Positions 4,369-44,706 of a stretch of 64,000 nt of DNA are shown piece after piece. The DNA lies in assembly GCF_018682675.1 (NCBI RefSeq), contig NZ_JAFMTR010000010.1:1-64000 (forward strand), read 5' to 3'. This DNA comes from Sphingopyxis soli. Lineage in GTDB: Bacteria > Pseudomonadota > Alphaproteobacteria > Sphingomonadales > Sphingomonadaceae. Position 1 is the first letter of the stretch; each line of letters starts with the position of its first letter. The notes beneath the pieces are model-generated. The model was not told the DNA's origin and made no database searches. It saw only the letters and a list, made by a program, of their open reading frames with translations. The translations under genes were made by a program, and so were the position numbers.

Positions 4369-4396
4369 TGACCTAGTTATACAACTCGCTATGACA
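4369..4396. promoter_or_regulatory. Shared operator, copy 1, in a divergent promoter
   Basis: The near-palindrome AGTTATACAACT lies at 4375-4386 within the extended sequence GACCTAGTTATACAACTCG. On the plus strand TTGACC (4369-4374) and TATGAC (4391-4396) are separated by 16 bases and would make a sigma70-like promoter with the palindrome in the spacer. The site lies between the crotonase operon (minus) and dehydrogenase pair 2 (plus). Six more copies occur in the window. A repressor bound here would block both promoters. Binding is inferred. Confidence 0.75.
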
Positions 4397-4425
4397 TAGT
4401 CCACAACAAGAGGGCAAGGCCTGCG

Positions 4426-5517
4426 ATGAATTTCGACCTTAGCGATGAACAGAAAATGCTTGGCGAGCAAGCGCGGTCGCTTCTGGCCGATATGTCGTCG
4501 TTCGACCGTCTGCGAACACTGATCGATTCGGGCGCCGAATGGGACGAGCCGCTGTGGCGCGCGCTCGCCGGCATGGGCTTCCTCGGTGCTGCGATTCCCG
4601 AGGAGCATGGCGGGCTCGGCCTTGGCGCGCTCGACCTTGGCGTGATCATGGAAGCGCTCGGCGCCGCGAATGCTTCGGTGCCGTTCATGAGTTCGATCAT
4701 CCTGGGAGCCGAGGCGATCCGGCTGGCTGGCAGCGAGGCGCAGAAGGCGGCGTGGCTTCCCAAACTGGCGAGTGGCGAGGCGGTCGCGACCTTCGCCTAT
4801 ACCGAAGGTCCGGGGCCGGTGTTCGCGACGGGCGCATCGCTCGCGGGCGGGCGCCTTTCGGGAAGCAAGTCTCCGGTCGCCGACGCCGGCATTGCCGATA
4901 TCGCGGTCGTTCTCGTCGCGGGAGGCAGTTTTGCGCTGGTCGAATTGGATCAGCCCGGCGTGACGCGGACGAAGCTCGACAGCTTTGACCAGCTCCGCCC
5001 GCACTACCGCCTCGATTTTGCCGGTGCCGTGGCGGAGGCAATGCCGGGAGCAGGCAAACTCGACCGGCTGATCGACCATGCGGCGGTGCTTGCGGCGTTC
5101 GAAGCCGTGGGGGCGTCCGAAGCCTGCCTTCGCATGGCGCGCGACTATGCGATGGAACGCCAGATGTTCGGACGTCCGCTCGCGGGGTATCAGGCGATCA
5201 AACACAAGCTCGCCGATGTCGCGGTGGCGACCGAACTCGCGCGCTCCAATGCCTATTATGGCGGTTGGGCAGCCGAGTCTTCGCCCGACGATCTGCCGGC
5301 AGCGGCGGCGGCAGCGCGCCTGTCGGGCATCAAATGCTTTGAACTCGCGGCGCGCGAGAATCTGCAGGTGCACGGCGGCATCGGCTATACGTTCGAGGCG
5401 AACTGCCATTTCTATTACCGGCGCGAACGTATGCTCGCCGTGCATCTCGGCAACCGGGGTTTCTGGGCCGACCGGTTGCTGAATGCGCAGCCGGGCAGCC
5501 AGGTGAAGGCGGCGTAA
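4426..5517 (+). CDS. Acyl-CoA dehydrogenase, small (beta-type) subunit of pair 2
   Basis: A 363-residue acyl-CoA dehydrogenase-fold protein beginning MNFDLSDEQKMLGEQARSL. The middle beta-domain is short, and the C-terminal domain has QMFGRPLAGYQAIKHKLAD and QVHGGIGYTFEANCHFYYRR. It is followed after one base by the larger dehydrogenase at 5519, the usual arrangement for an alpha2beta2 enzyme. It is the first plus-strand gene after shared operator copy 1, so expression is probably controlled there. It would help oxidise an acyl-CoA intermediate; the substrate is unknown. The N-terminal half resembles the beta subunit of pair 1, suggesting duplication and specialisation for successive rounds of degradation. 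Confidence 0.88.
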   Translation: MNFDLSDEQKMLGEQARSLLADMSSFDRLRTLIDSGAEWDEPLWRALAGMGFLGAAIPEEHGGLGLGALDLGVIMEALGAANASVPFMSSIILGAEAIRLAGSEAQKAAWLPKLASGEAVATFAYTEGPGPVFATGASLAGGRLSGSKSPVADAGIADIAVVLVAGGSFALVELDQPGVTRTKLDSFDQLRPHYRLDFAGAVAEAMPGAGKLDRLIDHAAVLAAFEAVGASEACLRMARDYAMERQMFGRPLAGYQAIKHKLADVAVATELARSNAYYGGWAAESSPDDLPAAAAAARLSGIKCFELAARENLQVHGGIGYTFEANCHFYYRRERMLAVHLGNRGFWADRLLNAQPGSQVKAA

Positions 5518-5518
5518 G

Positions 5519-6742
5519 ATGGATTTCAACGACAGCTCCGAAGAAGCCGCCTTCCGCTCGCAAGCGCGCGATTGGCTCGCTGCGCATGCCCCAGCGCACG
5601 AGCTGACGCCGGGCGAAAAAATATCCGACACCGAAGAGGCCGATCGTAGCCGGGCGTGGATGCGCGCGCTTTACGAGGGCGGCTGGTCGGGGCTGACCTT
5701 CCCCAAGGCGCTCGGCGGGCGCGGGCTGTCGGGCGCGGAGGCGGTGATCTTCGCCGAGGAAGAGGGCAAATATCACCTGCCCAAGGGGCCCTTCACTTCG
5801 ATCGGCACCGGCATGGCGCTGCCCGTGATCGCGAAACACGGCACCGACGCACAGCGCGCACGCTTTATCGAAGCGACGCTGAAGGGCGACCTGACGTGGT
5901 GCCAGCTCTTCTCCGAGCCTGCCGCGGGGTCCGACCTCGCGGCGCTGCGCACCAAGGCGGTGCGTGCCGATGACGGCAGCGGCGACTGGATCGTCAACGG
6001 CCAGAAAGTCTGGTCGAGCTGGGCGCATTTGACGGACTGGGGTATTCTGGTCGTGCGGACCGACCCAACCTTGCCCAAGCATAAGGGGCTGACCTTCTTC
6101 GTCGTCGACATGAAGACGCCGGGAATCGAGACGCGCCCGATCCGCCAGATTTCGGGTGCGAGCGAGTTCAACGAAACCTTTCTCACCGACGTCCGCATTC
6201 CCGACGCGAACCGGATCGGGGCAGAGGGCGAGGGCTGGGCCTGCTGCATGACCGTCTTGATGGGAGAACGTCTCGGCTCGGGTGCGCATCGCAGCGGGAT
6301 CGGGCCTTTGCTCGATTATGCCGCGGCGACCCCCGACGGGCATGGCGGCACCATGCTCGACGACCGTGCGGTGCGCCAGCAACTCGCCGAAGCACTCGCC
6401 GAGGAACAGGGCGAACGTTTCTTTCAGGCGCGGCTGCGGACGATGGTCTCCAAAGGTGAAAATCCCGGCGCACTCGCGGGGATGGTCAAGCTTGCCTATG
6501 CGGGGCGCTACCAGAAGACCAATGGCCTCGCGCTCGAGCTGCGCGGGCTCGCGGGCATCGCCCCCGAAGCTGGCGACACCGCGACCGGTGACGTTCAGTA
6601 TGATTATATCTATTCGACCGTGATGCGCATCGCAGGCGGCGCCGACGAGGTGCTGCGCAACCAGATCGCCGAACGCGTTCTGGGGATGCCGGGCGAAGTG
6701 CGAATGGACAAGGATGTGCCATTCGAGACGTTGAAGGGGTAA
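5519..6742 (+). CDS. Acyl-CoA dehydrogenase, large (alpha-type) subunit of pair 2
   Basis: A 407-residue acyl-CoA dehydrogenase beginning MDFNDSSEEAAFRSQARDWL. It carries the CQLFSEPAAGSDLAALRTKA signature, the VNGQKVWSSWAH beta-strand motif and the C-terminal RIAGGADEVLRNQIAERVLGMP. As in the large subunit of pair 1, AGGAD stands where homotetrameric enzymes have the catalytic Glu. The start codon lies one base after the stop of the small subunit, so the two are translationally linked. The high similarity in layout to 1167-2372 suggests paralogues that handle different chain or ring intermediates. A hairpin follows the stop and separates it from the convergent ligase gene. Confidence 0.9.
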   Translation: MDFNDSSEEAAFRSQARDWLAAHAPAHELTPGEKISDTEEADRSRAWMRALYEGGWSGLTFPKALGGRGLSGAEAVIFAEEEGKYHLPKGPFTSIGTGMALPVIAKHGTDAQRARFIEATLKGDLTWCQLFSEPAAGSDLAALRTKAVRADDGSGDWIVNGQKVWSSWAHLTDWGILVVRTDPTLPKHKGLTFFVVDMKTPGIETRPIRQISGASEFNETFLTDVRIPDANRIGAEGEGWACCMTVLMGERLGSGAHRSGIGPLLDYAAATPDGHGGTMLDDRAVRQQLAEALAEEQGERFFQARLRTMVSKGENPGALAGMVKLAYAGRYQKTNGLALELRGLAGIAPEAGDTATGDVQYDYIYSTVMRIAGGADEVLRNQIAERVLGMPGEVRMDKDVPFETLKG

Positions 6743-6750
6743 TTCGTCTC

Positions 6751-6774: not shown

Positions 6775-8262
6775 CTAGGCCGCCCGTCGCCGCTCCGCCG
6801 CCGCCTTTGCCAGGGGGGCAACCAGATCCTTCTTCAAGATCTTCCCGTTCGGATTGAGCGGCATCATATCCATTACGACAAGCGTGCGCGGAACCTTGTT
6901 GTCGCCCAGATGCTCCCTGCAAAAGGCGATGATCTCGTCGCCTGTCGCGGCCTGGCCGGGGCGAAGCGTCACGGCCGCCGCAATATCCTCGCCCAGCACC
7001 TCGTGCGGCACGCCAACGACGGCGGCCTGTTGGACCGCCGGGTGCAGATGCAGCACGGTCTCGATCTCGAGCGGCGTGATGTTGTAGCCGCCGCGGATGA
7101 TCAACTCTTTCGACCGGCCGGCCATGATCAGGTCGCCATCTTCATCCACATAGCCGAGGTCGCCGGTCTTGGTCCAGCCGCCCTTGAAGCTCTCGGCGGT
7201 CGCCTCTGCGTCGTTCCAGTAGCGACGCGGGTGCTTCTGCCAGCCGTAGATTTCGCCGACGACATTTGGCTCGGATATGACATTGCCCGCCTCGTCACGA
7301 ATCTGCATATGCGCCGGCAGCTTGCCGACGCAGCCGGGCTTCAGCACCTGCTCCTGGCTGGTCGTGCCCAGCCCGACCCCGCCTTCGGACATGCCGTAAC
7401 TGTTGCGGATGCGCAGGTGCGGCCACAGGTCGGCCGCGCGTTTCACCGAATCGTGCGGAAGCGGCGCGGTGCCGGTCATCAGATATTTGACCCCCGCCAT
7501 ATCGTAGTCGGCAACGTCGGGATGATCGAGCACGAGGCGCAGCATCGATGGCACCAAATAGATCAGGTTCGGGCGCTTTTCCTTCGCCAGCTCGAGGAAG
7601 CCCTTGGGATCGAACTTCGGCTGGGTGATCGCGGTCGCGCCGCCGCGCGCGGGGAGCATCACGATGCCGATATTGCCGCCGGAGCCGGTGAGCGGCAACG
7701 CGTGCAGCGTCGAGCGCGAGCGGTCCTGATTATAGCCGGTGACCCCGGTCATCAGGTCGGGATGCGAGACGACGACGCCCTTGATCTTGCCCGTCGTGCC
7801 CGACGTTCCGAGGATTTCGGCATCGGCGTCGGGGTCGAGGCTGGCCTGATCGGGAAGCGCGGACAGGTCGCGCGGCATTGCGTCGACATGCCAGCAGCCG
7901 TCGAGTTCCAGATCCTCCACCAACTCGGGGGCGTCGGTCAGACAGAAGCGCGGTTCGCATAGAGCCGCATAGTCGGAAATCTCGCGCGGGTTGAGACGCG
8001 TGTTGATCGGGCAGGCGATCCCGCCAGCGCGGAACACCGCAAACACCGCGATCGCCATTTCGACCGCGCGTGCATTGCTGATCGGCAGGAACACGCGGTC
8101 GCCGGGAACGAGGCCCGCCGCGGCGAGGCCGCCGCCGATCTCGTCGGCCTCGCGGTCCCATTCGGCGAAGCTGATCTGGCGCCGTGTATCGTCGTGCGCG
8201 ATCTCGCTCGCCTGATGCTGCGCACGCACCTTCAAAGCATCGCTGATGCGGCGAACTTCCAT
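6775..8262 (-). CDS. AMP-forming acyl-CoA synthetase (class I adenylate-forming)
   Basis: A 495-residue ligase that would activate a carboxylic acid to its CoA thioester through an acyl-adenylate. Motifs in order are the P-loop-like TSGTTGKIKGVVVSH, the aromatic/A5 block YGMSEGG, the A7-A8 region GDLGYVDEDGDLIMAGRSKELIIRGG, and the C-terminal catalytic lysine in NPNGKILKKD. All core motifs are intact and the length is normal. It is divergent from the MaoC-type gene at 8338 across shared operator copy 2, so the first activation step and a hydration step would be co-induced. It is one of three such ligases in the island. Substrate specificity cannot be predicted. Confidence 0.9.
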   Translation of the reverse strand: MEVRRISDALKVRAQHQASEIAHDDTRRQISFAEWDREADEIGGGLAAAGLVPGDRVFLPISNARAVEMAIAVFAVFRAGGIACPINTRLNPREISDYAALCEPRFCLTDAPELVEDLELDGCWHVDAMPRDLSALPDQASLDPDADAEILGTSGTTGKIKGVVVSHPDLMTGVTGYNQDRSRSTLHALPLTGSGGNIGIVMLPARGGATAITQPKFDPKGFLELAKEKRPNLIYLVPSMLRLVLDHPDVADYDMAGVKYLMTGTAPLPHDSVKRAADLWPHLRIRNSYGMSEGGVGLGTTSQEQVLKPGCVGKLPAHMQIRDEAGNVISEPNVVGEIYGWQKHPRRYWNDAEATAESFKGGWTKTGDLGYVDEDGDLIMAGRSKELIIRGGYNITPLEIETVLHLHPAVQQAAVVGVPHEVLGEDIAAAVTLRPGQAATGDEIIAFCREHLGDNKVPRTLVVMDMMPLNPNGKILKKDLVAPLAKAAAERRRAA

Positions 8263-8302
8263 TACGGCACTATCCCCTTGCTTCGCTATTGGGGATGTAT
8301 TA

Positions 8303-8320
8303 CCTAGTTATACAACTGGT
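8303..8320. promoter_or_regulatory. Shared operator, copy 2, in a divergent promoter
   Basis: AGTTATACAACT at 8306-8317 within TACCTAGTTATACAACTGG. It is identical to copy 1 over CCTAGTTATACAACT. It lies in the 75-base spacer between the acyl-CoA ligase (minus) and the MaoC-type hydratase (plus), about 20 bases upstream of the latter's start, so binding would occlude the promoters or the transcription start. Confidence 0.75.
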
Positions 8321-8337: not shown

Positions 8338-9624
8338 ATGGCCGAGGCGAAAAACGACATCAAGGAAAGCGAAGAGTGGCAGAAGGCCGTCGCCTACGAG
8401 ATTACCGACGCGGACATAGAGCGGCAGCGCAAGCTGCTGGGGTTCGACCAGGCGGCGAAAACGCGCGAATATATCCAGGTCGCGACCGAGGACAATATCC
8501 GCAACTTCGCGCACGGTATCGGCGACGACAATCCGCTCTATACCGATCCGCATTATGCGAAGAAGACCCGCTGGGGCAGCGTCATCGCGCCCGGGATGAT
8601 GGCGGGCGTCATCAACCGGCCGATGCTGGGCGACCCCGTTCCCGACGAGATCAAGGCGCTCCGCAAGAGTCTGTTCAAGGGCATCCACGTCTTCGTGTCG
8701 GGCTCGCAATGGGATTTTTACCGCCCGATCTATCCGGGCGATACAATCTACAGCTTCAACGGCGACGAGACCTGCGAGGTCAAGCAGTCCGAATTCGCAG
8801 GGCGTTCGGTGATCGGCGTGCGCCGCGACGTGAAAATCAACCAGCGCGGCGAGGTCGTCGCGGTCTATCGCATCCTGCGCGTACTGACCGAGCGCAAGAC
8901 CGCCGCCAAGAAGGGCAAATATTCGTCGATCGAGCCCGCGACCTACACCGACGAGGAAATGCAGGCGATTGAGGATATTTATGCCGCCGAACGCGTCCAG
9001 GGCGCCGAAAAGCGCTGGTTCGAGAGCGTCGAGAAGGGTGACTCGCTGGGGCTGCAGGTCAAGGGGCCGCTGACCGTCACGGACGTGATCTGCTTCCATG
9101 CCGGCGGTTACGGCTTTGTGCCCTATGCGCCGACCGCGAACCGCCTCGCGCACAAGAACCGCCAGCGCATCCCGGCCTTCTATGTGAAGAATGAATATGG
9201 CATTCCCGACGTCGCGCAGCGGCTGCACTGGGACCCGACCTGGGCGCAGGCGATCGGCAATCCGATGGCCTATGACTATGGAGTGATGCGCGAAAATTAC
9301 CTGTGGCAATATCTCAGCGACTGGGCCGGCGACGATGCCGTCATCACCCACATTCACGACGAGATCCGCAAGTTCAACTATATGGGCGACGTCCAGCGCG
9401 TGACGGGCGAAGTGCTCGCGAAACGGGAGGAGGGCGGCCAGAGCTTCGTCGATGTGGCGGTGAAATTCACCAACCAGCGCGACGAGGAAACCGTGCGCGC
9501 GACCGCGACGATCGCATTGCCGAGCAAGTCCCGCCCGCTTCCGCTTTATCCCGCCGTGCCCGACGACCTCGCCGAAAAGGCAGTGCGCATGCTGGCGCGC
9601 CACCGCGAACTTGGCGGGGATTGA
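8338..9624 (+). CDS. MaoC/FAS1-like double hot-dog enoyl-CoA hydratase
   Basis: A 428-residue protein with an N-terminal FAS1-like dehydratase/MaoC-N hot-dog domain (about residues 20-180) and a second hot-dog segment near the C-terminus. The R-hydratase-like motif FAHGIGDDNPLYTDPHYA is seen near residue 57, with Tyr where classical MaoC enzymes have His. The preceding start context GGGAGATATGCGATG supplies a good ribosome binding site. Such enzymes hydrate bulky 2-enoyl-CoAs, and two-domain forms accept large substrates. Because the five crotonases nearby lack complete catalytic glutamate pairs, this is the best candidate for the main hydratase of the pathway. It lies downstream of operator copy 2 and upstream of two crotonases. 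Confidence 0.82.
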   Translation: MAEAKNDIKESEEWQKAVAYEITDADIERQRKLLGFDQAAKTREYIQVATEDNIRNFAHGIGDDNPLYTDPHYAKKTRWGSVIAPGMMAGVINRPMLGDPVPDEIKALRKSLFKGIHVFVSGSQWDFYRPIYPGDTIYSFNGDETCEVKQSEFAGRSVIGVRRDVKINQRGEVVAVYRILRVLTERKTAAKKGKYSSIEPATYTDEEMQAIEDIYAAERVQGAEKRWFESVEKGDSLGLQVKGPLTVTDVICFHAGGYGFVPYAPTANRLAHKNRQRIPAFYVKNEYGIPDVAQRLHWDPTWAQAIGNPMAYDYGVMRENYLWQYLSDWAGDDAVITHIHDEIRKFNYMGDVQRVTGEVLAKREEGGQSFVDVAVKFTNQRDEETVRATATIALPSKSRPLPLYPAVPDDLAEKAVRMLARHRELGGD

Positions 9625-9634
9625 CGACGGCCCC

Positions 9635-9770
9635 ATCCTCCCCACTAGTGGGGAGGTGGCAGCGCGCGGCGCTGACGGAGGGGGTTGGAGTGCGGGAACC
9701 GCCGGTCGAATGCCGCCGCCCCCCTCCACCGTTCTGCGAACGGTCCCCCTCCCCGCAAGCGGGGAGGATT
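9635..9770. repeat. Dispersed inverted-repeat element, copy A (inverted orientation)
   Basis: Intergenic, about 136 bases, bounded by CCTCCCCACTAGTGGGGAGG and CCCTCCCCGCAAGCGGGGAGG. Its reverse complement shares ordered blocks with the elements at 48551-48718 and 59414-59547: GGGGACCG, a short hairpin, GGTGG, then CCCTCCGTCAGCGC and GCTGCCACCTCCCC. It is the only copy inside the catabolic island. The GGGGAGGA at its end also supplies the ribosome binding site of the crotonase at 9772. Confidence 0.75.
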
Positions 9771-9771
9771 T

Positions 9772-10566
9772 ATGAGTGAAGTGCTGATCGACAATGATGC
9801 GGGGGTCCGCACCATCACCCTCAACCGGCCCGACCGGCTCAACGCGCTGACAAGCTCGATCATGGCGCCGCTCGCCGACGCCTGCGCCGACGCGGCGCGC
9901 GATGCGTCGGTCGGCTGCGTCGTCGTGACCGGCGCGGGCAGGGGGTTCTGCGCCGGTGGCGATCTCAAGGAAGGCGGCGCCGACAAGGCGGTCGTGCCCG
10001 CCAATTCCGACGTCGGAAGCCGCAATGAGCAGAGCTTCATACGGCTGCGCGGGTTCATGGAAAGCTCGCGCCTGCTCCACGAAATGCCCAAGCCGACGAT
10101 CGCGATGGTCAACGGCCCGGTCGCGGGCGCGGGGATCGGCCTCGCCGGGGCGTGCGACCTGCGCTTTGCCGGCAGGAGTGCGAGCTTCCTGACCGCCTTC
10201 GACCGCATCGGGGCGGGCGGTGATTTCGGATCGACCTGGTTCTGGACCAAGATTCTCGGCACCGGCGTCGCGCGCGAATTGTTTCTCCTCGGCGAGAAGC
10301 TCTCCGCAGAAGAGGCCTTTGCAAAAGGCATCTACACGCGTTTGTTCGACGACGAAGCGCTCCACGACGCGACGATGGCGGCGGCGCGGCGCCTCGTCGA
10401 CGGTCCGCGCATGGGCTATCGCTATATGAAAGCCAACCTCAACAACGCCGAGGACTGGGCGTTCGAGGCCGCGCTCGATGCCGAAGCGCTGAACATGGGC
10501 CTGTCGACCAGCGCGACCGCGATGATCTGGCGCGAGAAGAAGAAGGCCGAGAATCCGGATGGCTGA
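9772..10566 (+). CDS. Crotonase-fold protein (enoyl-CoA hydratase/isomerase family)
   Basis: A 264-residue crotonase member. The start at 9772 follows GGGGAGGATTT; an upstream extension would read through the repeat element and is rejected. The N-terminus is MSEVLIDNDAGVRTITLNRPDRLNAL, and oxyanion-hole segments GFCAGGDLKEGG and NGPVAGAGIGLAGACD are present. By eye, the first catalytic Glu (QPE block) is replaced by TAF while the second is kept in VARELFL. One-glutamate enzymes of this family are often isomerases or hydrolases rather than hydratases. The gene overlaps the next crotonase by 8 bases. It could move or hydrate a double bond after dehydrogenation; the exact reaction is uncertain. 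Confidence 0.88.
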   Translation: MSEVLIDNDAGVRTITLNRPDRLNALTSSIMAPLADACADAARDASVGCVVVTGAGRGFCAGGDLKEGGADKAVVPANSDVGSRNEQSFIRLRGFMESSRLLHEMPKPTIAMVNGPVAGAGIGLAGACDLRFAGRSASFLTAFDRIGAGGDFGSTWFWTKILGTGVARELFLLGEKLSAEEAFAKGIYTRLFDDEALHDATMAAARRLVDGPRMGYRYMKANLNNAEDWAFEAALDAEALNMGLSTSATAMIWREKKKAENPDG

Positions 10567-11356
10567 TTTCACGCATATCCGCATCGATCGTCATGAGCAG
10601 GGTATTGCGGCGGTGGTCGTCGCGCGGGCCGATATCGGCAACGCGTCGTCGCCCGAAATGCTCGGCGAGATTCGCGATGCCTTTGCCGCGCTATCGGGTG
10701 AGCGCGACGTGCGCGCGATCATTTTCGCCGCCGAAGGAAAGCATTTCTCGGTCGGCGCCGATTTCGCGTTTCTGCAACGGCTGAAGGGCATGTCGGCCAG
10801 CGAGATCAAGGATACGGTCTACGCGAACTTCCAGGGCGCGGCGCGTGCGATCTATCGCTGTCCCAAACCGACGCTCGCACTGGTGCAGGGGGCTGCGGTG
10901 ACGGTTGGCTGCGAACTCGCGCTCGCGTGCGATTTCCGTGTCGCTGCCGAAACCGCGATGTTCCAGGAAAGCTGGATCAAGCTCGGCATCATGCCGCCGC
11001 TCGGCGGAACCTTTCTGTTGCCCCGCATCGTCGGACTGGGCCGCGCGATGGAGATGTGCCTCCGCGGCAAGCAGGTGCGCGCCGACGAGGCGCTCGCTAT
11101 GGGACTGGTGAGCGAAGTCGTCGCGCGGGACGATCTGGAAGCGCGCGGCATGGCATTGGCCCGCGAACTCGCGGCTTCGGCGCCGCTCGGCTATGCGACG
11201 GTCAAGCAATCGATCCAACGCGCGCTCGAAAGCAGCATGGAAGCCGAGTGGCAGGCGAACCTGCCGAACCAGGCGCTGCTCCTCGGCAGCCAGGACCATC
11301 GCGAGGGGTTGGCAGCGGCAACCGAAAAGCGCGCGCCGCAGTTTCGCGGCGAATAG
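10559..11356 (+). CDS. Crotonase-fold protein (enoyl-CoA hydratase/isomerase family)
   Basis: A 265-residue crotonase beginning MADFTHIRIDRHEQGIAAVVVARADI, without the usual LNRP block. It retains HFSVGADFAFLQ and a oxyanion-hole region QGAAVTVGCELALACD. The QPE equivalent reads QESW (first Glu position appears replaced by Trp), while the second Glu is present in GRAMEMCLRG. It overlaps 9772-10566 by 8 bases and is probably co-translated. It ends 2 bases before the stop of the convergent thioesterase gene with no terminator visible between them. Isomerase function is as likely as hydration. Confidence 0.87.
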   Translation: MADFTHIRIDRHEQGIAAVVVARADIGNASSPEMLGEIRDAFAALSGERDVRAIIFAAEGKHFSVGADFAFLQRLKGMSASEIKDTVYANFQGAARAIYRCPKPTLALVQGAAVTVGCELALACDFRVAAETAMFQESWIKLGIMPPLGGTFLLPRIVGLGRAMEMCLRGKQVRADEALAMGLVSEVVARDDLEARGMALARELAASAPLGYATVKQSIQRALESSMEAEWQANLPNQALLLGSQDHREGLAAATEKRAPQFRGE

Positions 11357-12150: not shown

Positions 12151-12190
12151 CAATCCCTCCTAAACAAGCTCGCGCAAGCATACAACATAT

Positions 12191-12220: not shown

Positions 12221-12247
12221 TTGGCCAGATTCGAGGGAGAGCGTGCG

Positions 12248-13459: not shown

Positions 13460-13462
13460 CCG

Positions 13463-37125: not shown

Positions 37126-38033
37126 GCCACGTCTCCCCGCGTTTTGGCGATTGCCGCCGCCGCCGTGCCGCTTTCGCGTGCGCGTTTGCCGAACTGCTCG
37201 CGGATCGGCACGAATTCGGGCATCACCAAGGACCGCCGCAGCCAGTTCGCGGCATCGACGACCAGCGTGTGCCCGCTGATATAGGTCGCATAGGGCGAAC
37301 AGAGGAAGGTCGCTGCCCAACCGAGTTCGCGCACCTCGCCGACGCGCATTCCCGGGATCGTGTTGTCGCCGCGCTCGCCGACGCGGTGGCGCGTCATATG
37401 GTCGGGCAGATCTTCATGCGGGAAACGCCCGGGCGCAATGCAATTGACGCGGATGCCGTCGGGTGCCCATTCGACCGCGAGGCTCTGCGTCAGGTTGGCG
37501 ACGCCCGCCTTCGCCGCCGCCGAATGCGAGGTGCCCGGTCCGCCCGCCCAGCTATAGGTCGCCCCGATATTCAGGATTGCGCCGGGCAGCCCCGCCGCGA
37601 GTCTCCGGATCGCAAATTCGCGGCTGCAGTTATAGGTGCCGTTGAGGACGATATCGACGACGGTGCGAAACCCGTTCGGCGTCATTTCTTCCGCCGGCGC
37701 GGGGAAATTTCCTGCTGCATTGTTGATCAGCACGTCGACCGGTCCAAGCTTCGCCTCGATCGCGTCGAACGCCGTCGCGACAGCGTCGGGATCGCGCACG
37801 TCGCACGCGACGGCGATCGCCTCGGCGCCGACGTCGCGGATCGCCGCGAGCCCGGCTTCGAGATGCTCGGGCTTGCGGCTCAGCACCGCGATCTTGGCGC
37901 CCAGCCGGGCAAATTCGACCGCCATGCCCTTGCCCAGCCCGGTGCCGCCGCCGGTCACGGCGACAACCTGTCCGGCATAGGTCCCATCGGGCAGCGCTTT
38001 CGCGCCAAGCGGAGGCGGGGCGGGGAGGGCCAT
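37122..38033 (-). CDS. SDR of the 2,4-dienoyl-CoA reductase type
   Basis: A 303-residue SDR with TGGGTGLGKG (about 26-35), the DECR hallmark NNAAGNF, and a catalytic Tyr 15 residues before Lys (TYSWAGG...SAAAK). These features match bacterial and peroxisomal 2,4-dienoyl-CoA reductases, which use NADPH. It is a paralogue of the SDR at 24885-25766. Its stop overlaps the start of the crotonase below by 4 bases, and its start follows the crotonase at 38034 with no gap. A function in reducing conjugated enoyl intermediates is likely. Confidence 0.88.
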   Translation of the reverse strand: MALPAPPPLGAKALPDGTYAGQVVAVTGGGTGLGKGMAVEFARLGAKIAVLSRKPEHLEAGLAAIRDVGAEAIAVACDVRDPDAVATAFDAIEAKLGPVDVLINNAAGNFPAPAEEMTPNGFRTVVDIVLNGTYNCSREFAIRRLAAGLPGAILNIGATYSWAGGPGTSHSAAAKAGVANLTQSLAVEWAPDGIRVNCIAPGRFPHEDLPDHMTRHRVGERGDNTIPGMRVGEVRELGWAATFLCSPYATYISGHTLVVDAANWLRRSLVMPEFVPIREQFGKRARESGTAAAAIAKTRGDVA

Positions 38034-38813
38034 CTATTTGCCTTTATACTGCGGCGCGCGCTTCTCGCGGATCGCGGCGCGGGCCTCGTGATAATCGTCG
38101 GTCTTGAACAGATAGCTTTGCGCATAAAGCTCGGCGCGCGTGCCGGTGCGGATCGTCGCACCGTGCATCAGGTTGATCATTTCCTTTGCCATCGCGAGGT
38201 TGATCGGCGGTTTGGCGGCGATATCGCGCGCGACCGCCAGCGCCCGGGCGTCGAGGTCATCGGGTTCGACGACGAAATCGACCGCGCCCCATTCCAGCGC
38301 GGTCGCAGCGTCGATCTTCTGCCCGGTCATCACCATATATTTGGTTCGCGACGGGCCGATCAGCGCGGTCATCATCTGCGTCCCGCCGGTATCGGGGAGT
38401 ACCCCGTACAGGATCTCGGGCAACGCCATCTTCAGCGTCGTGTCGCTAATCCGAATATCGGCGGCGAGCGCGAGTTCGCACCCGCCGCCGATAGCGCCCC
38501 CCTTCAGCGCCGCGATGATCGGCTTGGTCGATTCCTGCATCCGCAGGCGGCCTTCCTGGTGGCGGCGGACGAAATGGAAATCGCTTTCGTCGCGCGCGCG
38601 CTGGCCCAGCACATTGGTGTCGCGCCCTGAGCAGAAGCTTTTTCCGGTTGCGCGGATCAGGATTGCGTTCGACGCGGTCTCGTCAAGCGCCTCGCCAACG
38701 AGCTGCTGGAACAGCGCCGACATGCTGTCGTCCATCGCATTGTGCCGCTCGGGGCGATTCAGCGTGATGATGCGCAGCGAACCGTCGCGCTCGCTCAAGA
38801 TCCGATCGGCCAT
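38034..38813 (-). CDS. Crotonase-fold protein (enoyl-CoA hydratase/isomerase family)
   Basis: A 259-residue crotonase. The ATG at 38813 has GGGAGAAG at seven bases, while a further-upstream ATG (38855) would overlap the operator region. It begins MADRILSERDGSLRIITLNRPERHNAM and has SFCSGRDTNVLG and LKGGAIGGGCELALAADI. The first Glu is kept in the LPEILYG block but the second reads RTKYMVMTG, so only one of the two hydratase glutamates is present. It is the first gene of the minus operon crotonase, DECR-like SDR, crotonase, dehydrogenase pair 4. It is divergent from 38909 across operator copy 6. Confidence 0.88.
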   Translation of the reverse strand: MADRILSERDGSLRIITLNRPERHNAMDDSMSALFQQLVGEALDETASNAILIRATGKSFCSGRDTNVLGQRARDESDFHFVRRHQEGRLRMQESTKPIIAALKGGAIGGGCELALAADIRISDTTLKMALPEILYGVLPDTGGTQMMTALIGPSRTKYMVMTGQKIDAATALEWGAVDFVVEPDDLDARALAVARDIAAKPPINLAMAKEMINLMHGATIRTGTRAELYAQSYLFKTDDYHEARAAIREKRAPQYKGK

Positions 38814-38849
38814 GGCCGTGCTTCTCCCAACAGCATTTCGATATAGGTC

Positions 38850-38876
38850 TTGCACGAGTTATATAACTAGGTCAAT
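38850..38876. promoter_or_regulatory. Shared operator, copy 6, in a divergent promoter
   Basis: The perfect palindrome AGTTATATAACT at 38857-38868; on the minus strand the extended site GACCTAGTTATATAACTCG equals the consensus and TTGACC overlaps its left end as a -35 element. On the plus strand TTGCAC (38850-38855) is a possible -35. It lies between the crotonase operon (minus) and the SDR/ligase operon (plus). Confidence 0.75.
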
Positions 38877-38908
38877 TATGTCGCGACAGGGAGATGGAGA
38901 GAAAGCGG

Positions 38909-39667
38909 ATGTTCGAAGGCAAGACCGCGCTGGTCACCGGCGGTTCGCGCGGCATCGGCGCCGCGGTCGTGCGGCGACTCGGCGCCGCGGGCGCGCATGT
39001 CGCGATCAACTACGCCGGCAGCAAGGAGGCGGCCGAGACGCTCGCGGCGGAGATCGTCGCGGCGGGCGGCAAGGCGTTCGCGGTGCAGGCCGACGTTTCG
39101 ACGCTCGCGGGGATCGAGTCGCTGTTCAGGGCGTGCGATGCGCAGTTCGGCGGCCCCCCAAATCTCGATTTTCTGATCAACAATGCCGGCGTCGGCCGCG
39201 GCGGGCGCGACGGTACGCTCAAGGGGGCGGGCGAGGAGCTGTACGACGAATTGTTCGCCGTCAATGTGAAGGGTCCGCATTTTGTCACGCAAGCCGCGCT
39301 GCCGCGGCTGCGCGACGGCGGGCGGATCGTCAATATCGGGTCGATGTCGGGCAAGGTCGGCCAACCCTTCGCCGCCGCCTATGCGATGACCAAGCGCGCG
39401 GTGCAGAGCCTGACCTTCTCTACCGCGCTCGCGGTCGCCAAGCGCCAGATCACCTGCAACTGCATTGCGCCCGGTGCAGTCGCCACCGACTTCATCACCG
39501 CGCTGCGCGAAACGCCCGGTTGGGACGAGGCCACTGCGAAACACACGCCGATGGGACGCCTTGGCGAGCCTGACGACATCGCGGGCGCGGTCATGATGCT
39601 GCTCGGCGACGATGCGCGCTGGGTCACCGGTCAGATCATCGAGGCGAGCGGAGGCCTTGCGCTCTGA
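38909..39667 (+). CDS. Short-chain dehydrogenase/reductase (SDR)
   Basis: A 252-residue classical SDR. The ATG at 38909 has GGAGA eight bases upstream; the ATG at 38894 is directly fused to GGGAG and is rejected. TGGSRGIG (about 9-16), INNAGVG, NIGSMSGK and the catalytic YAMTK are intact, and it ends EASGGLAL. The stop overlaps the ligase start (TGATG). It opens an operon of five oxidoreductases, a ligase and a DUF2889 protein ending at 44626, behind operator copy 6. It probably oxidises a 3-hydroxyacyl-CoA or ring hydroxyl. Confidence 0.9.
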   Translation: MFEGKTALVTGGSRGIGAAVVRRLGAAGAHVAINYAGSKEAAETLAAEIVAAGGKAFAVQADVSTLAGIESLFRACDAQFGGPPNLDFLINNAGVGRGGRDGTLKGAGEELYDELFAVNVKGPHFVTQAALPRLRDGGRIVNIGSMSGKVGQPFAAAYAMTKRAVQSLTFSTALAVAKRQITCNCIAPGAVATDFITALRETPGWDEATAKHTPMGRLGEPDDIAGAVMMLLGDDARWVTGQIIEASGGLAL

Positions 39668-41166
39668 TGGCGTTGATGACCGAAAAGCTGCGCGCGATCA
39701 TGGCGCTCGATCCGGATCGGACCGAGATCGATTTTGAGGGGCACGACTATAGCTGGCGACAAATCGCCGAGACTGTCCGCGCGATCGAGAATGCGCTCGA
39801 AACGATGGGACTGCCCGCGGATACGCGCGTTGGCGTGATGCTGCGCAACCGTCCCGGCCATGTCGCCGCGATCGTCGCGGTGCTTTCGACCGACCGCTGC
39901 CTCGTTACCCTCAATCCCATCCTGCCCGACGCAAAGCTGTTCGCGGACATCGAAGGGCTCGGGCTTCCCGTCGTCATCGCCGACGCGACCGACCTCGCTC
40001 GGCCCGGCGTCGCGGAGGCGCTTGAGCGCGCGGGCTCGGCCGTCGTCGAGATCGGCGCGCGCCTCGACGGCGCGCGAGTCGTCCCGAGCGACAGGCGCGC
40101 CGAAGTGCAGACTTCACCCGGCGTCGCGATCGAAATGCTCACCAGCGGCACCACGGGAACGCCGAAACGCGTCCCCTTGAGCCGCGACTCCTTCGATGCG
40201 AGCTTTCGCGGTTTCACAAAATATGAGCGCGGCCGCAGCTTCGACGACCCGCCGAGGCTCAACTCGGGTTGTACGATGATCGTCAATCCGCTCACCCATA
40301 TCGGCGGCATCTATGGCTGCATCGGGGCGCTCGCGGCGGGACGGAAGATCGCGCTCCTGGAAAAATTTACCGTCGAGGCGTGGGTTTCTGCCGTGAAGCG
40401 CAACCGTCCTGCGGTCGCGCCCGCAGTCCCTTCGGCGGTGCGGATGCTGCTCGACGCCGATGTCGACCCTGCGGACCTGTCGAGCCTCAAGTCGCTCATC
40501 TCGGGCACCGCGCCGCTTTCACCCGATCTCGTCGATGCCTTTCTCGCCAAATATGGCATCCCGATTTGCGGCAATTATGGAGCGACCGAATTCGCCGGTG
40601 CGATTGCCGGGTGGACCATCGACGATTTTCGCCGGCTGTGGGCGGAAAAGCGCGGCGCCGTCGGCCGCGTCCACGGCGATATCGAGGCGCGCGTCGTCGA
40701 TGCGGAAAGCGGCGCGGTCTTGCCCCATGGGACCGAGGGCTTGCTCGAGCTCAAGGGGCGCCAGCTTGACAACGACATGCAATGGCTGCGCACGACCGAT
40801 CGCGCGGTGCTCGACGCCGATCGTTTTCTTTATATCCGGGGACGCGCCGACAACGCGATCATCCGTGGGGGGTTCAAGATCCATCCGGACGATGTCGTCC
40901 GTGCGATCAACGATCATCCCGCCGTGCGCGAAGCCGCGGTGGTCGGCGTACCCGACGCGCGGCTCGGCGCCGTGCCCGCGGCGGCAATCATCCTCAAGGA
41001 CGGCGCCGCCGAACCGGAGGTCGACGTTCTCAAGACGTGGCTAAGGGAGCGGCTGATCGCGTATCAGGTGCCGGTACACATCCGCTACGTTGCCGACTTT
41101 CCGCGCACGCCTTCGATGAAACCATCCGCGCCGGGATTGCAGTCCCTGTTCGAAGGAGCGTCGTGA
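39667..41166 (+). CDS. AMP-forming acyl-CoA synthetase-like protein
   Basis: A 499-residue class I adenylate-forming enzyme. It has MLTSGTTGTPKRVPLS, GNYGATEFAG, the RADNAIIRGGFKIHP block and a C-terminal TPSMKPSAPGLQ in which the Lys may be the adenylation lysine. The A3 loop ends KRVP instead of KGV, and the start MALMTEKLRAIMALDPD is short, so it belongs to a divergent subgroup. Genes on both sides overlap (TGATG at the start; TGATG with the next SDR). Probably a CoA ligase of a pathway acid; amino-acid or other adenylation is less likely. Confidence 0.85.
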   Translation: MALMTEKLRAIMALDPDRTEIDFEGHDYSWRQIAETVRAIENALETMGLPADTRVGVMLRNRPGHVAAIVAVLSTDRCLVTLNPILPDAKLFADIEGLGLPVVIADATDLARPGVAEALERAGSAVVEIGARLDGARVVPSDRRAEVQTSPGVAIEMLTSGTTGTPKRVPLSRDSFDASFRGFTKYERGRSFDDPPRLNSGCTMIVNPLTHIGGIYGCIGALAAGRKIALLEKFTVEAWVSAVKRNRPAVAPAVPSAVRMLLDADVDPADLSSLKSLISGTAPLSPDLVDAFLAKYGIPICGNYGATEFAGAIAGWTIDDFRRLWAEKRGAVGRVHGDIEARVVDAESGAVLPHGTEGLLELKGRQLDNDMQWLRTTDRAVLDADRFLYIRGRADNAIIRGGFKIHPDDVVRAINDHPAVREAAVVGVPDARLGAVPAAAIILKDGAAEPEVDVLKTWLRERLIAYQVPVHIRYVADFPRTPSMKPSAPGLQSLFEGAS

Positions 41167-41984
41167 TGGAAGATTTCAGCGGCAAGTCGGTCATCGTCAC
41201 CGGCGGCGGGCGCGGCGTCGGGCGCGGGATCGCCAAGGCCTTCGCGGCAGCAGGCGCGGAGGTCATGCTCGGCGCGCGAACCATATCCTACGCCGAGGAT
41301 GTGAAGGCCGAGATCGAAAAGGCAGGCGGCGCCGCCGAATGCTTCGCCGCCGACATCGCGCGTCACGCCAATTGCCGCGCGCTCGTCGAAGCCACGGTGC
41401 AAGCCTTCGGCACCGTCGACATCATCGTCCACGCCGCGGCCGACATTCCGCATGGCGGGGTTGGCCATGTCGACGACGAGCGTCTGGAAGCGGGCTTTGC
41501 GAGCATCGCGAAAGCCGCCTGGTGGCTGCTCGACGCCGCGCGGCCCCATCTCGCCGACGCGAAGGACGGCGGGCGATTCATTGCGATCGGTTCGATCAAC
41601 GGCACCTTCAACGTCGTTCCCAACATGACCGCTTATGGCATGGCGAAGGCTGCGCTCGACGCTTTCATTCGCGCCGCTGCCGGCGACGTCGTGGGCGAGG
41701 GGATCACGGTCAACGCGATCAATCCGGGCCTCGTCGCCAGCGACCGCGCCAAAGCCGTGCTCGGCGACAAGGGCCTCGCCGCTTATGGTGCTACCGTGCC
41801 CGTCGGCCGCGCGGGTACGCCGGCCGATATCGCGCACGCCTGCCTGTTCCTCGCCTCGGCAAAGTCCGACTATATCACCGGCACGACGATCAAGATGGAC
41901 GGCGGCTCGACGGTCGCGGCGTCGTCGGGTCGCAACGGCATCTTGCAGGAACGACTCAAGCTCCAGCAGGGAAAGGCGCCCTGA
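41166..41984 (+). CDS. Short-chain dehydrogenase/reductase (SDR)
   Basis: A 272-residue SDR beginning MEDFSGKSVIVTGGGRGVGRG. The cofactor loop is TGGGRGVG; the second motif reads VHAAADIP rather than NNAG; IGSINGTF and the catalytic YGMAK are intact. It has a C-terminal extension of about 20 residues ending LKLQQGKAP. It shares the TGATG overlaps with the ligase upstream and the next SDR. Role: a dehydrogenase step in the degradation, substrate unknown. Confidence 0.9.
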   Translation: MEDFSGKSVIVTGGGRGVGRGIAKAFAAAGAEVMLGARTISYAEDVKAEIEKAGGAAECFAADIARHANCRALVEATVQAFGTVDIIVHAAADIPHGGVGHVDDERLEAGFASIAKAAWWLLDAARPHLADAKDGGRFIAIGSINGTFNVVPNMTAYGMAKAALDAFIRAAAGDVVGEGITVNAINPGLVASDRAKAVLGDKGLAAYGATVPVGRAGTPADIAHACLFLASAKSDYITGTTIKMDGGSTVAASSGRNGILQERLKLQQGKAP

Positions 41985-42778
41985 TGGACCTCGGGATTGC
42001 CGGAAAGGTTGCGCTCGTCTTCGGGGGATCGAAGGGTATCGGGCTCGGTTGCGCGCACGAGTTCGCACGCGAAGGCTGCAAGACCGTGATCGCCGCGCGG
42101 ACGCAGGCGACGATCGATACTGCGGTTGCCGAGGTGCGAGCGGCAGGCGGACAGGTCGCCGGCATCTCCGCTGATTGCACGACCAGGGACGGGATAGCAT
42201 CGGCGGTCAGCGCATCGACCGGTGCGTTCGGGGCACCCGACATTTTGATCTTCAACGTCGACTCCGGCCCCAAAGGGGCTTTCCTCGACGTCGACGACGA
42301 GACTTTTTTCGCCGCGAACAACAACAATGTCATGGCGTTCCGCTGGGCCGTGCAGGCGGTGTTTCCGCATATGCGCGAGCAGGGCTGGGGCCGCATCCTG
42401 ACCATCGGCACCAATTCGGTCAAGGCGCCGCACCGCAAGCTCCCGCGCGCGGCGCAGAACACCTACCGCGTCGGCGCGCTGGCGCTCTCGAAGACGTTGT
42501 CGGCCGAACTCGGTCCCTTCGGCATTACCGTTAACACGCTGGGCACCGGTGCGATCGCGACGCCGCAATTCCGCGAGGTGTTTACGAAGATCGCCGAGGC
42601 CCAAGGCCAGACCTACGAAGACCATATCGCCGCGCGCGTCAGCGCGTGGCCCGTCCAGCGAATGGGCACGCCCGAGGATATGGCGGCCGCCGCGGCGTTC
42701 CTCTGTTCGGATCGTGCCGGGTTCATCACCGGTCAGGTGCTGATCGTCGATGGCGGCAATCTTGAAGTTTTGCAATAA
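41984..42778 (+). CDS. SDR-family protein with altered active site
   Basis: A 264-residue SDR starting MDLGIAGKVALVFGGSKGIGLG with a largely conserved cofactor loop (GGSKGIG). The NNAG region reads IFNVDSG and the catalytic segment reads NTYRVGALALSK, so the Lys four residues after Tyr is missing. Subfamilies with such substitutions exist, so activity may be altered rather than lost. The C-terminus IVDGGNLEVLQ is normal. The start overlaps the previous stop (TGATG). A gap of 23 bases with AAGGAAGCAAGGG leads to the next SDR. Confidence 0.87.
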   Translation: MDLGIAGKVALVFGGSKGIGLGCAHEFAREGCKTVIAARTQATIDTAVAEVRAAGGQVAGISADCTTRDGIASAVSASTGAFGAPDILIFNVDSGPKGAFLDVDDETFFAANNNNVMAFRWAVQAVFPHMREQGWGRILTIGTNSVKAPHRKLPRAAQNTYRVGALALSKTLSAELGPFGITVNTLGTGAIATPQFREVFTKIAEAQGQTYEDHIAARVSAWPVQRMGTPEDMAAAAAFLCSDRAGFITGQVLIVDGGNLEVLQ

Positions 42779-42801
42779 TCTGAAAGCAAGGAAGCAAGGG
42801 C

Positions 42802-43596
42802 ATGAAACTCGACAAGAATTTGGCTGCAGTCGTCACTGGTGGCGCCTCGGGCCTTGGCCGCGCCAGTGCCGAAGCGCTCGCGGCCGCGGGACTGAAAGTC
42901 GCGATCTTCGACGTCAATGAAGAGGGCGGCAAGGCGGTCGCCGACGCGATCGGGGGGATTTTCTGCAAGGTCGATATCATCAGCGAGGACAGTGTCGTCG
43001 CGGGGTACGAGGCCGCGCGCGCCGCACACGGCCAGGAGCGGGTGCTCGTCCACTGCGCGCAAATATCGAAGGGCGGAAAGACCGTCCGTTACGACAAGGC
43101 GACGGGCGGCTATGTCCGCTACTCGACCGAAGACTACGCCTTCTCCGCACAGGGCATCCTGATCGCCAGCTACCGGCTGGCATCGCTGTCGGCGCTCGGC
43201 ATGGCGAATGCCGAGCCGCTGAACGACGATGGCGAGCGCGGCGCGATCATCCTCACGGCCTCGGCCGCGGCACAGGATGCGCAGATTGGGCAGGTCGGCT
43301 ACGGCTCGCTCAAGGCCGGGGTCAACGGGCTCGTCCTGCCGCTGGCGCGCGATCTGATGGACCTTGGCATCCGCGTCAATTCGATCATGCCCGGCATCTT
43401 CGCAACACCGCCGATGCTCGCGGTCAAGGATCGCGCCCCGGCGATTTTCGAGGGGCTGTCGGCATCCGTGCCGTTCCCCAAGCGTCTGGGTCATCCCGAA
43501 GAGTTCGGTTCGCTGGTGCTGGAGCTTGTCCGCAACGGCTATTTCAACGGTCAGAGTCTGCGGCTCGATGGCGCCATCCGTATGCCGCCCAAATAG
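42802..43596 (+). CDS. SDR resembling 3-hydroxyacyl-CoA dehydrogenase type II (HSD17B10-like)
   Basis: A 264-residue SDR with TGGASGLG (about 12-19), the DVNEEGG acidic NAD-selectivity site after strand 2, and the catalytic YGSLK. The NNAG block is VHCAQIS, reminiscent of the VNCAG of mitochondrial HSD17B10, as are the long insertion near residues 85-100 (KTVRYDKATGGYVRY) and GERGAIILTASAAA. HSD10-like enzymes oxidise 3-hydroxyacyl-CoAs and steroid hydroxyls with NAD. It precedes the DUF2889 gene by 10 bases. Confidence 0.87.
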   Translation: MKLDKNLAAVVTGGASGLGRASAEALAAAGLKVAIFDVNEEGGKAVADAIGGIFCKVDIISEDSVVAGYEAARAAHGQERVLVHCAQISKGGKTVRYDKATGGYVRYSTEDYAFSAQGILIASYRLASLSALGMANAEPLNDDGERGAIILTASAAAQDAQIGQVGYGSLKAGVNGLVLPLARDLMDLGIRVNSIMPGIFATPPMLAVKDRAPAIFEGLSASVPFPKRLGHPEEFGSLVLELVRNGYFNGQSLRLDGAIRMPPK

Positions 43597-43606
43597 GATC
43601 AAGGTC

Positions 43607-44626
43607 TTGAACGCTCCCCAGCAATTTCCCTTTGCACGGCAGTCGGCGGGCCCGGCGCCGGAGCGTCGTCCGGGCTCGATCCGGCGCACGACTTCGATCG
43701 ACTCCGACTGGCCCGATGGCTTCGGCCAGGCATGGGTCATGGCCGGGCGCGCTCGCGATCTACTGACCTCTTTCACGGGCGAAGCAGTGGAACTCGCCCG
43801 CGGCGACTTTCGCATCCGGACGTCACCGATCCGCGAGATACTCGAAATATCGGCGACGCCCGATCACCCGCGGCTTCAGGACATGGTCGGGGTGCGCGCG
43901 GGCGGGGCCAGCCGCCACGCGCTCGCCGCGACCTTGGGCGACATCCGCGGTACGCCGACCTTTCAACTCCTCGACGATTTCGCGGGCGCCAGCCTCGTCG
44001 CCGGTTGGATATGGTCGCGCTGGATCGACGACTGGCAGGCGGCGATGCGGAGCAAGGGCACGCAATCGACCGCTGGCAACAAGGGACGGATGCTCAACAT
44101 TTGCACCGGCTTTACCGAAGGCGCGAGTTCGCTGACGGAAGGTGGCGGCGTCGACCATGCGCATCAATCATCGACCGAGGTCGGTCCGCTCGTCAACCCG
44201 AACGATCCGGTCGGCTGGCACACCATGGCTGAACAGGGCACCCGCCCCCAGGCAAGGCGCGCGCGTCGCATCGACATCTGGCGCGCGGAAGGCGTGCTAA
44301 AGGTCGACGCGGGCTTTCAGGACAGCGGGCCCAATCCGCAAGGGACGCGGACCGCGATCCACGAGTATCGGGTCTATGCGGAGATCGACGAGGCGAGCGA
44401 AACCCTGCTTTCGCTTCAGGCCCTGCCGCTGATCCTGCCGTTCCGCGAATGCCCCGGTGCCTCGATGAAAGCGGCGCGGATGGTCGGCCAGAATGTCGCG
44501 GATTTTAGGCAGGCAGTTCTCGATACGCTCGCCGGCACGCTCGGCTGCACCCATCTCAATGATGTCCTGCGCGCCCTTGCCGACGCGCCCGCCCTCGCAC
44601 GATTATTACCCAAAGCGCCGGATTGA
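43607..44626 (+). CDS. DUF2889-family protein
   Basis: A 339-residue protein starting at TTG 43607 with AGGATCAAGG upstream. The N-terminal ~30 residues are basic (RRPGSIRRTTSIDSDWPDG). The C-terminal part shows the DUF2889 pattern: LEISATPDHPRLQDMVGVRAG and then FRECPGASMKAARMVG, with a late DTLAGTLGCTHLNDVLRALA in which Cys, His and Asp are conserved-looking. No signal peptide or membrane segment. The family recurs in catabolic operons for polycyclic substrates, but its role is unknown. It is last in the operon that begins at 38909, and a spacer with operator copy 7 follows. Confidence 0.82.
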   Translation: MNAPQQFPFARQSAGPAPERRPGSIRRTTSIDSDWPDGFGQAWVMAGRARDLLTSFTGEAVELARGDFRIRTSPIREILEISATPDHPRLQDMVGVRAGGASRHALAATLGDIRGTPTFQLLDDFAGASLVAGWIWSRWIDDWQAAMRSKGTQSTAGNKGRMLNICTGFTEGASSLTEGGGVDHAHQSSTEVGPLVNPNDPVGWHTMAEQGTRPQARRARRIDIWRAEGVLKVDAGFQDSGPNPQGTRTAIHEYRVYAEIDEASETLLSLQALPLILPFRECPGASMKAARMVGQNVADFRQAVLDTLAGTLGCTHLNDVLRALADAPALARLLPKAPD

Positions 44627-44641
44627 AGCGCGAAATCGCAC

Positions 44642-44662
44642 GCGTTCCGCAACGGAAAGCGC
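44642..44662. terminator. Hairpin between DUF2889 gene and TonB receptor
   Basis: GCGTTCCG and CGGAAAGCGC can pair around a CAA loop. There is no T-run. It may end the oxidoreductase transcript. Confidence 0.3.
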
Positions 44663-44683
44663 AATTCACTTGTCTATCTTGTT

Positions 44684-44706
44684 AGACCTAGTTATATAAC
44701 TGACGT
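44684..44706. promoter_or_regulatory. Shared operator, copy 7, upstream of the TonB receptor
   Basis: The perfect palindrome AGTTATATAACT at 44690-44701 within GACCTAGTTATATAACTGAC, identical to the inverse of copy 6 over the left 15 bases. It lies 45 bases before the receptor start codon. TTAGAC and GTAGCG flank it as weak promoter elements. Confidence 0.75.

Follow-up and report, generated by a model that had tools for sequence, protein, structure and literature searches.

The window analysed here, the first 64 kb (64,000 nucleotides) of contig C106 (131.6 kb) of Sphingopyxis soli, whose 3.63 Mb genome is held in 116 contigs, carries from position 1 to ~48.5 kb an island of catabolic genes: acyl-CoA ligases, paired acyl-CoA dehydrogenases, enoyl-CoA hydratases, a MaoC-like hydratase, SDRs, NMO-like proteins, a P450 run, a TonB receptor, and an MFS transporter. 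Three regulators are encoded among them, of the GntR/FCD (27141-27998), MarR (23021-23482), and TetR (33484-34047) types. One 16-mer, ACCTAGTTATAYAACT, recurs ahead of almost all operons of the island; it is very probably the binding site of the first of these regulators (GntR1), a prediction under which the island would be switched as a unit. The predicted operators, including three on a second contig (C44), and the proposed binder are as follows, with the strand in parentheses.

4371..4386 (+): operator ACCTAGTTATACAACT, spacer between ECH1 (-) and ACAD-b1 (+)
8302..8317 (+): operator ACCTAGTTATACAACT, spacer between the acyl-CoA ligase ACS1 (-) and a MaoC-like hydratase (+)
12194..12209 (+): operator ACGTAGTTATATAACT (ACG, 1 mismatch), spacer between a thioesterase (-) and ACAD-c1 (+)
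18835..18850 (-): weaker operator ACCTAGTTATACTTCT (2 mismatches), spacer between ADH (-) and an NMO-like gene (+)
24819..24834 (+): weaker operator ACCTAGTTATGTATGT (3 mismatches), spacer between the SMP-30 run (-) and the SDR-SDR-GntR1 run (+)
38857..38872 (-): operator ACCTAGTTATATAACT, spacer between the ECH/ACAD-e run (-) and the SDR4/ACS3 run (+)
44686..44701 (+): operator ACCTAGTTATATAACT, upstream of the TonB-dependent receptor
C44 (39.5 kb), 8041: site in the spacer between an amidohydrolase and a second GntR/FCD gene (GntR2)
C44, 10092: site upstream of a run of thiolase, ChsH2-like OB protein, and CoA-transferase
C44, 34238: site upstream of an acyl-CoA ligase
27141..27998 (+): GntR1, GntR winged helix-turn-helix (wHTH) plus FCD domain, proposed binder; open reading frame (ORF) start uncertain, residues 1-36 with a model confidence (pLDDT) below 50

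All seven sites named by a first-pass annotation of the window are present, their starts shifted by 0-2 bases, and six of them lie between divergent genes with the seventh before the TonB receptor, as it had said. It had counted an exact core in four sites; in fact five of the seven contain AGTTATAYAACT exactly. When two mismatches are allowed, the window holds 11 strand-matches to this 12-mer, where 0.29 are expected and 100 shuffles reach at most 3.

Genome-wide, matches to the 16-mer with up to two mismatches amount to 10 rows, none of them outside C106 and C44; they comprise six window sites, the three C44 sites, and one reverse-strand duplicate, the seventh window site having 3 mismatches. 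Spread of the motif to unrelated regions, the outcome that would have spoken against a regulon, was not seen at this stringency. With up to one mismatch the 16-mer gives 7 rows and its reversed pattern 0, and at 3 mismatches there is no enrichment (9+9 rows vs 15+8 for the reversed pattern, with other contigs also matched). Because of this, the two weak window sites (18835 and 24819) lean on relatives. The 12-mer with up to one mismatch falls in seven places of the genome, five in the window and two on C44; since its reversed control is about as frequent genome-wide (5+7 against 7+7 rows), the 12-mer alone proves little. When a matrix built from 100 sites of this genome and its relatives is applied, 7 sites in window 1-48550 reach 16 bits or more, and the next 83 kb of C106 contains nothing that scores 14 bits or higher.

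The regulon extends beyond the window, with three further sites on C44, one of them before GntR2, so that the claim of a regulon spanning the island stands while its extent was set too small. In G345, a genome of the same genus on a single contig (2.98 Mb), the genes of C44 and of the window lie together between ~464 kb (a start derived from gene lengths) and a site at 537 kb, forming an island of ~70-75 kb with sites among its genes. Genes of C44 and the window also share one contig in G370 and in G319. It is very probable that a single island lies in two pieces, C44 and the window. Contig C106 starts within the island, and C44 probably adjoins it in the genome.

Co-occurrence of motif and regulator was surveyed in 397 genomes of the family, with homologue cut-offs of E<=1e-30 for GntR1 and E<=1e-20 for GntR2; up to six first-look candidates per genome were scored for each, and absences hold to that depth. 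A GntR1 homologue is found in 29 of the 397 genomes and the 16-mer (up to one mismatch) in 16, of which 15 also have the GntR1 homologue; among the 368 genomes without GntR1 the motif occurs in one (Fisher p ~2e-18, a value that overstates independence since the genomes are related). The reversed-pattern control matches in 35 genomes, only 4 of them with GntR1 (p ~0.31). Total matches are alike by a by-eye count (42 for the motif, 43 for the control); what sets the motif apart from the control is its clustering and its association.

Recurrence was examined in 79 named loci around GntR1 relatives, which partly overlap with the genomes of the neighbourhood comparison. In the 75 loci with a GntR1 of 46-99% identity (1.29 Mb), 72 sites of at least 20 bits were found, compared with ~0.8 from 11 column-permuted or reversed matrices, and 46 of the 75 hold at least one; at that threshold, the four loci with a GntR1 below 46% identity have none. 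In Novosphingobium- and Blastomonas-type genomes and in G345, G370, G056, and G296, the sites stand next to counterparts of island genes (ACS1/MaoC, ECH1/ACAD-b, ACAD-c, the SMP-30/SnoaL group, the TonB receptor or DUF2889, GntR2, and the thiolase run), not all in each genome. The spacer between amidohydrolase and GntR2 carries a site in G000, G319, G357, G056, G296, and G370, and has none of at least 17 bits in G345. Sites near GntR1 homologues are also present in Pontixanthobacter, two Henriciella, and a Caulobacter metagenome-assembled genome (MAG), where the target genes are unmatched or weakly matched.

Individual window sites have their own counterparts. The ECH1 homologue is adjoined by a site in G370 (31.3 bits), G357 (23.6), and G345 (23.1). 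The ACS1/MaoC spacer site is found in G319, G370, G345, and G357, with a site next to ACS1 in G056 and one 5' of MaoC in G265, and ACAD-c1 is preceded by a site in G319 (23.6 bits), G370 (23.5), and G345 (23.1). For the two weak sites, the homologue of the NMO-like gene at 18860 is adjoined by a site in G319 (32.7 bits) and G302 (30.8), the 16-mer of site 18835 itself recurs upstream of GntR1 in L137, L138, L140, L141, and L147, and counterparts of site 24819 lie next to an SMP-30 or SnoaL gene in G319 (17.4 bits), G370 (29.4), and G345 (23.2). A site upstream of the receptor or adjacent to a DUF2889 homologue is seen in G296, G319, G357, and G348. Overall, computation directly shows the sites themselves, that they are confined to the island, that they recur ahead of orthologous genes, and that they co-occur with GntR1. 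Recurrence 5' of orthologous operons in several genera and co-occurrence with the regulator, two marks of a local regulon, are both present. The genome scan and the cross-genome test support one regulon under the GntR protein.

Loci L141, L155, and L176 are titled Gammaproteobacteria (RIFCSPHIGHO2_12_FULL_63_22) or Rudaea MAG, with a GntR1 81% and 68% identical to that of the window; these bins may be mixed or mislabelled.

Besides the relatedness of the genomes and the depth to which absences hold, several observations weigh against GntR1 as the general binder. The 16-mer with up to one mismatch is missing from 14 of the 29 GntR1 genomes; at least four of these (G222, G259, G322, and G235) have instead a 2-mismatch site of 28.9 bits near GntR1. 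One genome, G190, has the motif (a single 1-mismatch match) and no GntR1 homologue, and 29 of the 75 loci with GntR1 of at least 46% identity show nothing that reaches 20 bits in the stretch scanned. G244 and G346 have island genes together with a GntR1 homologue of 50-55% identity and no site of at least 14 bits in the 20 kb and 40 kb covered; look-alikes by the first matrix reach 10.6 and 13.7 bits in G244 and 10.4 and 9.4 in G346. In these two stretches (G244:C2 480001-500000 and G346:C81 32001-72000), the operator may have changed. Finally, when 4200-12400 was scanned with strict sigma-70 criteria, no promoter turned up at the three of the seven sites that lie there.

The form of the operator was described from 100 non-redundant sites scoring at least 20 bits with a matrix trained on the ten sites of the genome itself, a selection by which the strength of the core arises partly by construction. 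The best dyad over these sites is AGTTATATAACT (AGTTAT/ATAACT), centred between positions 10 and 11, and the consensus reads AGTTATAYAA(C/G)T, with GT and AC in the arrangement GT-N6-AC. On the left, ACCTAGTTAT hardly varies, the right side is loose, and the left ACCT has no right-hand counterpart. The operator is thus asymmetric rather than simply near-palindromic as first described. An alternative dyad, ACYTA-N6-TARGT (centre 8.5), reached a mean pair complementarity of 0.50 over 8 pairs vs 0.72 over 6 for centre 10.5, and was rejected, as was a NanR-like direct repeat, for which a half-site scan of the flanks of the 100 sites gave only small peaks. Outside the 16-mer, positions -8 to -1 carry some information, and those farther out and on the right side little (up to 0.39 bits). 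A T at -5 precedes the 16-mer in 80 of the 100 sites, and in 13/17, 10/10, 22/29, and 5/5 sites of the orientation classes, which are approximate as the ORF caller was crude.

Several sites had been placed between -35 and -10 boxes. The strict scan mentioned above does not bear this out for the three sites it covers; promoter-like elements do appear around the operator in relatives, where TTGAC is fused to the left edge (TTG before the AC of the site) in 13 of the 100 sites vs 2.3 expected, and follows immediately after the site in 9 vs 0.2 expected. Many of these cases are one promoter in several genomes, and therefore the support is from conservation only. In the window, TTGAC is fused to the left edge of site 12194, and TTGACA lies immediately 3' of site 24819, in relatives too. 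This excess around the site is as expected for a repressor that would cover promoters.

GntR1 is, judged from its sequence, an FCD-type GntR protein of the FadR subfamily and NanR-like. It consists of an N-terminal GntR wHTH domain (PF00392, 62.7 bits against a cut-off of 27, 2.5e-17) and a C-terminal FCD domain (PF07729, 58.6 bits against 24.3, 1.1e-15). An AlphaFold2 model (mean pLDDT 82.5, pTM 0.66) has seven C-terminal helices, and its top fold match is NanR 6on4 (E 2e-8, with a TM of only 0.39/0.49). The closest relative among named records is from Sphingopyxis sp. H073 (99%), and the recognition-helix stretch SRPTLREAFRILEAE is nearly invariant across 17 homologues. The usual metal ligands of FCD domains are one Asp and three His, which are not kept in every member. 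Here all 27 of 27 rows share D132, H188, and H262; Ser or an aromatic residue occupies the third His position, and the invariant H258 might substitute. With three of the four ligands kept, the ligand pocket may therefore differ from that of NanR. Since the GntR1 gene lies in the run leaving site 24819, it is probably self-controlled; weaker sites stand directly 5' of gntR1 in G319 (46363, 19.1 bits), G348 (3836, 17.4 bits), and G302 (102433, 19.5 bits).

The gene runs of the window are listed below. Their directions were not taken from the crude ORF caller, which picked spurious antisense ORFs at sites 24819 and 38857.

1167..4322 (-): ECH1 and the ACAD-a pair, leftward from site 4371
4426..6742 (+): ACAD-b pair, rightward from site 4371
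6775..8262 (-): acyl-CoA ligase ACS1
8338..11356 (+): MaoC-like hydratase and two ECH
11359..12153 (-): acyl-CoA thioesterase
12221..17813 (+): ACAD-c pair, WS/DGAT-like, DUF7065, NMO-like
20663..24800 (-): SMP-30, SnoaL, MarR, APH, and ACAD-d run, leftward from site 24819
24843..25766 (+): SDR (PF13561/PF00106), first gene of the run toward GntR1; true start probably later
26259..27119 (+): SDR (PF13561/PF00106), directly 5' of GntR1
29497..33421 (-): SDR, ALDH, glyoxalase, and P450 run; no site of its own; neighbour TetR 33484-34047 (+)
34312..38855 (-): ECH, ORF 37122-38033 (outside the domain scan), ECH, and the ACAD-e pair, leftward from site 38857
38894..41166 (+): SDR4 and acyl-CoA ligase ACS3
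41339..44626 (+): SDR5 and DUF2889 genes; true starts probably later
44737..48547 (+): TonB-dependent receptor and MFS transporter

An additional SDR-like stretch is found within 25265-26266. The first-pass annotation had proposed that all island genes except the P450 and MarR sets could be switched together. This layout agrees with the P450 exception and makes the MarR exception doubtful: the MarR gene (-) sits in the close co-directional run leaving site 24819 leftward, and that set is therefore probably within the regulon.

Some genes of the island give hints of the substrate. The thiolase is Ltp2-like (best PDB match 6ok1), the OB protein is ChsH2-like, and one ACAD is nearest to 4x28, a steroid side-chain enzyme; by analogy, the three resemble steroid side-chain chemistry. 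The APH protein of the 20663-24800 run resembles the kinase part of ACAD11 and, together with the SMP-30-like lactonase, suggests a 4-hydroxy acid (4-hydroxyacyl) or lactone step. For 20 proteins no NCBIfam model reached its cut-off among the matches listed, and steroid-ring genes were not sought elsewhere in the genome; therefore no substrate is claimed beyond some bulky acid, which the island probably breaks down. In G345, G370, and G319 the thiolase has 86-95% identity, which places it among the most conserved genes of the island. The Ltp2-like thiolase, the ChsH2-like OB protein, and a 735-aa CoA-transferase III protein form one run with the same operator (L026 10126-13988). GntR2 (C44:8056-8835), the second FCD regulator, has the operator in its promoter region (L026 8041-8835), an arrangement that suggests a regulatory cascade.

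A scheme for the island can be described as follows. GntR1 would occupy ~ten operators (seven in the window and three on C44) in front of the island operons, and when bound would keep off the acyl-CoA ligases, the paired acyl-CoA dehydrogenases, the hydratases, and the retro-aldolase-like thiolase module, as well as the TonB receptor, the second FCD regulator, and its own operon. GntR1 would be released when its FCD domain bound a pathway intermediate (probably a carboxylic acid or the CoA thioester of one), and the island would then be switched on together. In this scheme we infer direct binding, repression rather than activation, the inducer, and the substrate. Taken as one joint claim, it is highly likely from the genomic evidence that ACCTAGTTATAYAACT is the GntR1 operator and that GntR1 represses the whole island until an intermediate of the pathway releases it. 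More tentatively, and with rather less than even confidence, GntR1 may represent an undescribed FCD clade whose asymmetric operator code is ACCTAGTTATAYAAST (GT-N6-AC), and may stand at the top of a two-step circuit via the GntR2 gene in a conserved ~70-75 kb island whose CoA-dependent steps break down a bulky branched or cyclic acid, with a regulator-operator pair reaching beyond the sphingomonads (Henriciella, Caulobacter MAG).

Other explanations of the 16-mer agree less well with these data. GntR1 might bind and act as an activator or a dual regulator, as FadR of E. coli is dual. The TTGAC -35-like boxes overlap or abut 22 of the 100 sites in two registers, and although these 22 are not independent, they fit steric repression better, so that activation is unlikely. 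GntR2 might be the binder, or a co-binder with GntR1: a site lies directly before its gene in the same island, and of the 24 genomes (of 397) with a GntR2 homologue, 9 are among the 16 motif genomes (p ~2e-8). However, six genomes (G037, G120, G179, G265, G323, and G348) have motif and GntR1 without a GntR2 match, none of the 13 with GntR2 and no GntR1 has the motif, and GntR2 is only 36% identical to GntR1 over 72 wHTH residues; its involvement in binding is quite improbable. It is very improbable that the 16-mer is a promoter or structural element spread with the island: its AT-richness, its nearness to start codons, and the conserved T five bases upstream would suit such an element, but its position relative to the TTGAC boxes varies and, within one mismatch, it is almost confined to genomes with GntR1. 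The MarR protein, whose gene is in the run adjoining site 24819 and whose dimer a near-palindrome would suit, can hardly be the binder, since its homologues (E<=1e-8) occur in only 6 of 30 genomes and in none of G319, G345, G056, and G357 despite strong sites there, and its distribution, like that of GntR2, fits the motif worse than that of GntR1.

With GntR1 as the predicted repressor, the conserved operator serves as a gene list for one catabolic pathway, including parts on another contig, and names its regulator. On the genomic evidence this is a new regulon with a known kind of regulation and an unusual operator, relevant mainly to sphingomonad catabolism and regulon evolution. A literature search by titles and abstract openings found no description of a matching regulon, regulator, island, or DUF2889 role. 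Coordinate control of fatty-acid or branched-chain degradation genes is described for PsrA, FadP, and LiuR (PMC5343134); these belong to the TetR and MerR families, unlike GntR1, and the likeness rests on the coordinate control of acyl-CoA catabolism.

Among GntR proteins, the operators of FadR, LldR, GlcC, and PdhR are likewise AT-rich near-palindromes with GT and AC, often in divergent spacers. The FadR-subfamily survey gives TKGT/ACMA as the operator, in which GT and AC stand 2-3 nt apart (PMC4494728), and the gap of 6 nt here is a further point against GntR1 as the binder. The same survey lists NanR and BioR as exceptions to this consensus (PMC4494728); therefore the mismatch does not exclude GntR1 from the subfamily, and its operator adds an exception to the usual rule. 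The off-consensus BioR operator TTATMKATAA (PMC4494728) shares the TTAT/ATAA half-sites; unlike it, the operator here has TTATATAA without the two-base spacer and with an extra ACCTAG, and BioR controls biotin synthesis (PMC5343134).

The nearest known system is NanR of E. coli (FadR/FCD; PDB 6on4, 6wfq), the best match of GntR1 by sequence profile (2.8e-21), by NCBIfam (102.7 bits, far below the cut-off of 260), and by fold. One His position of NanR, presumably a metal ligand, is Tyr, Phe, or another residue in the GntR1 group. Unlike in the NanR system, none of the proteins scanned was recognised as the product of a sialic acid gene. NanR binds (GGTATA)3 repeats, whereas the core here is GTTATA, single and with no convincing direct repeat. 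NanR engages its operator asymmetrically (PMC8012715), and the asymmetric operator of the island resembles that engagement. NanR is, moreover, a local catabolic repressor, and the role proposed for GntR1 is alike.

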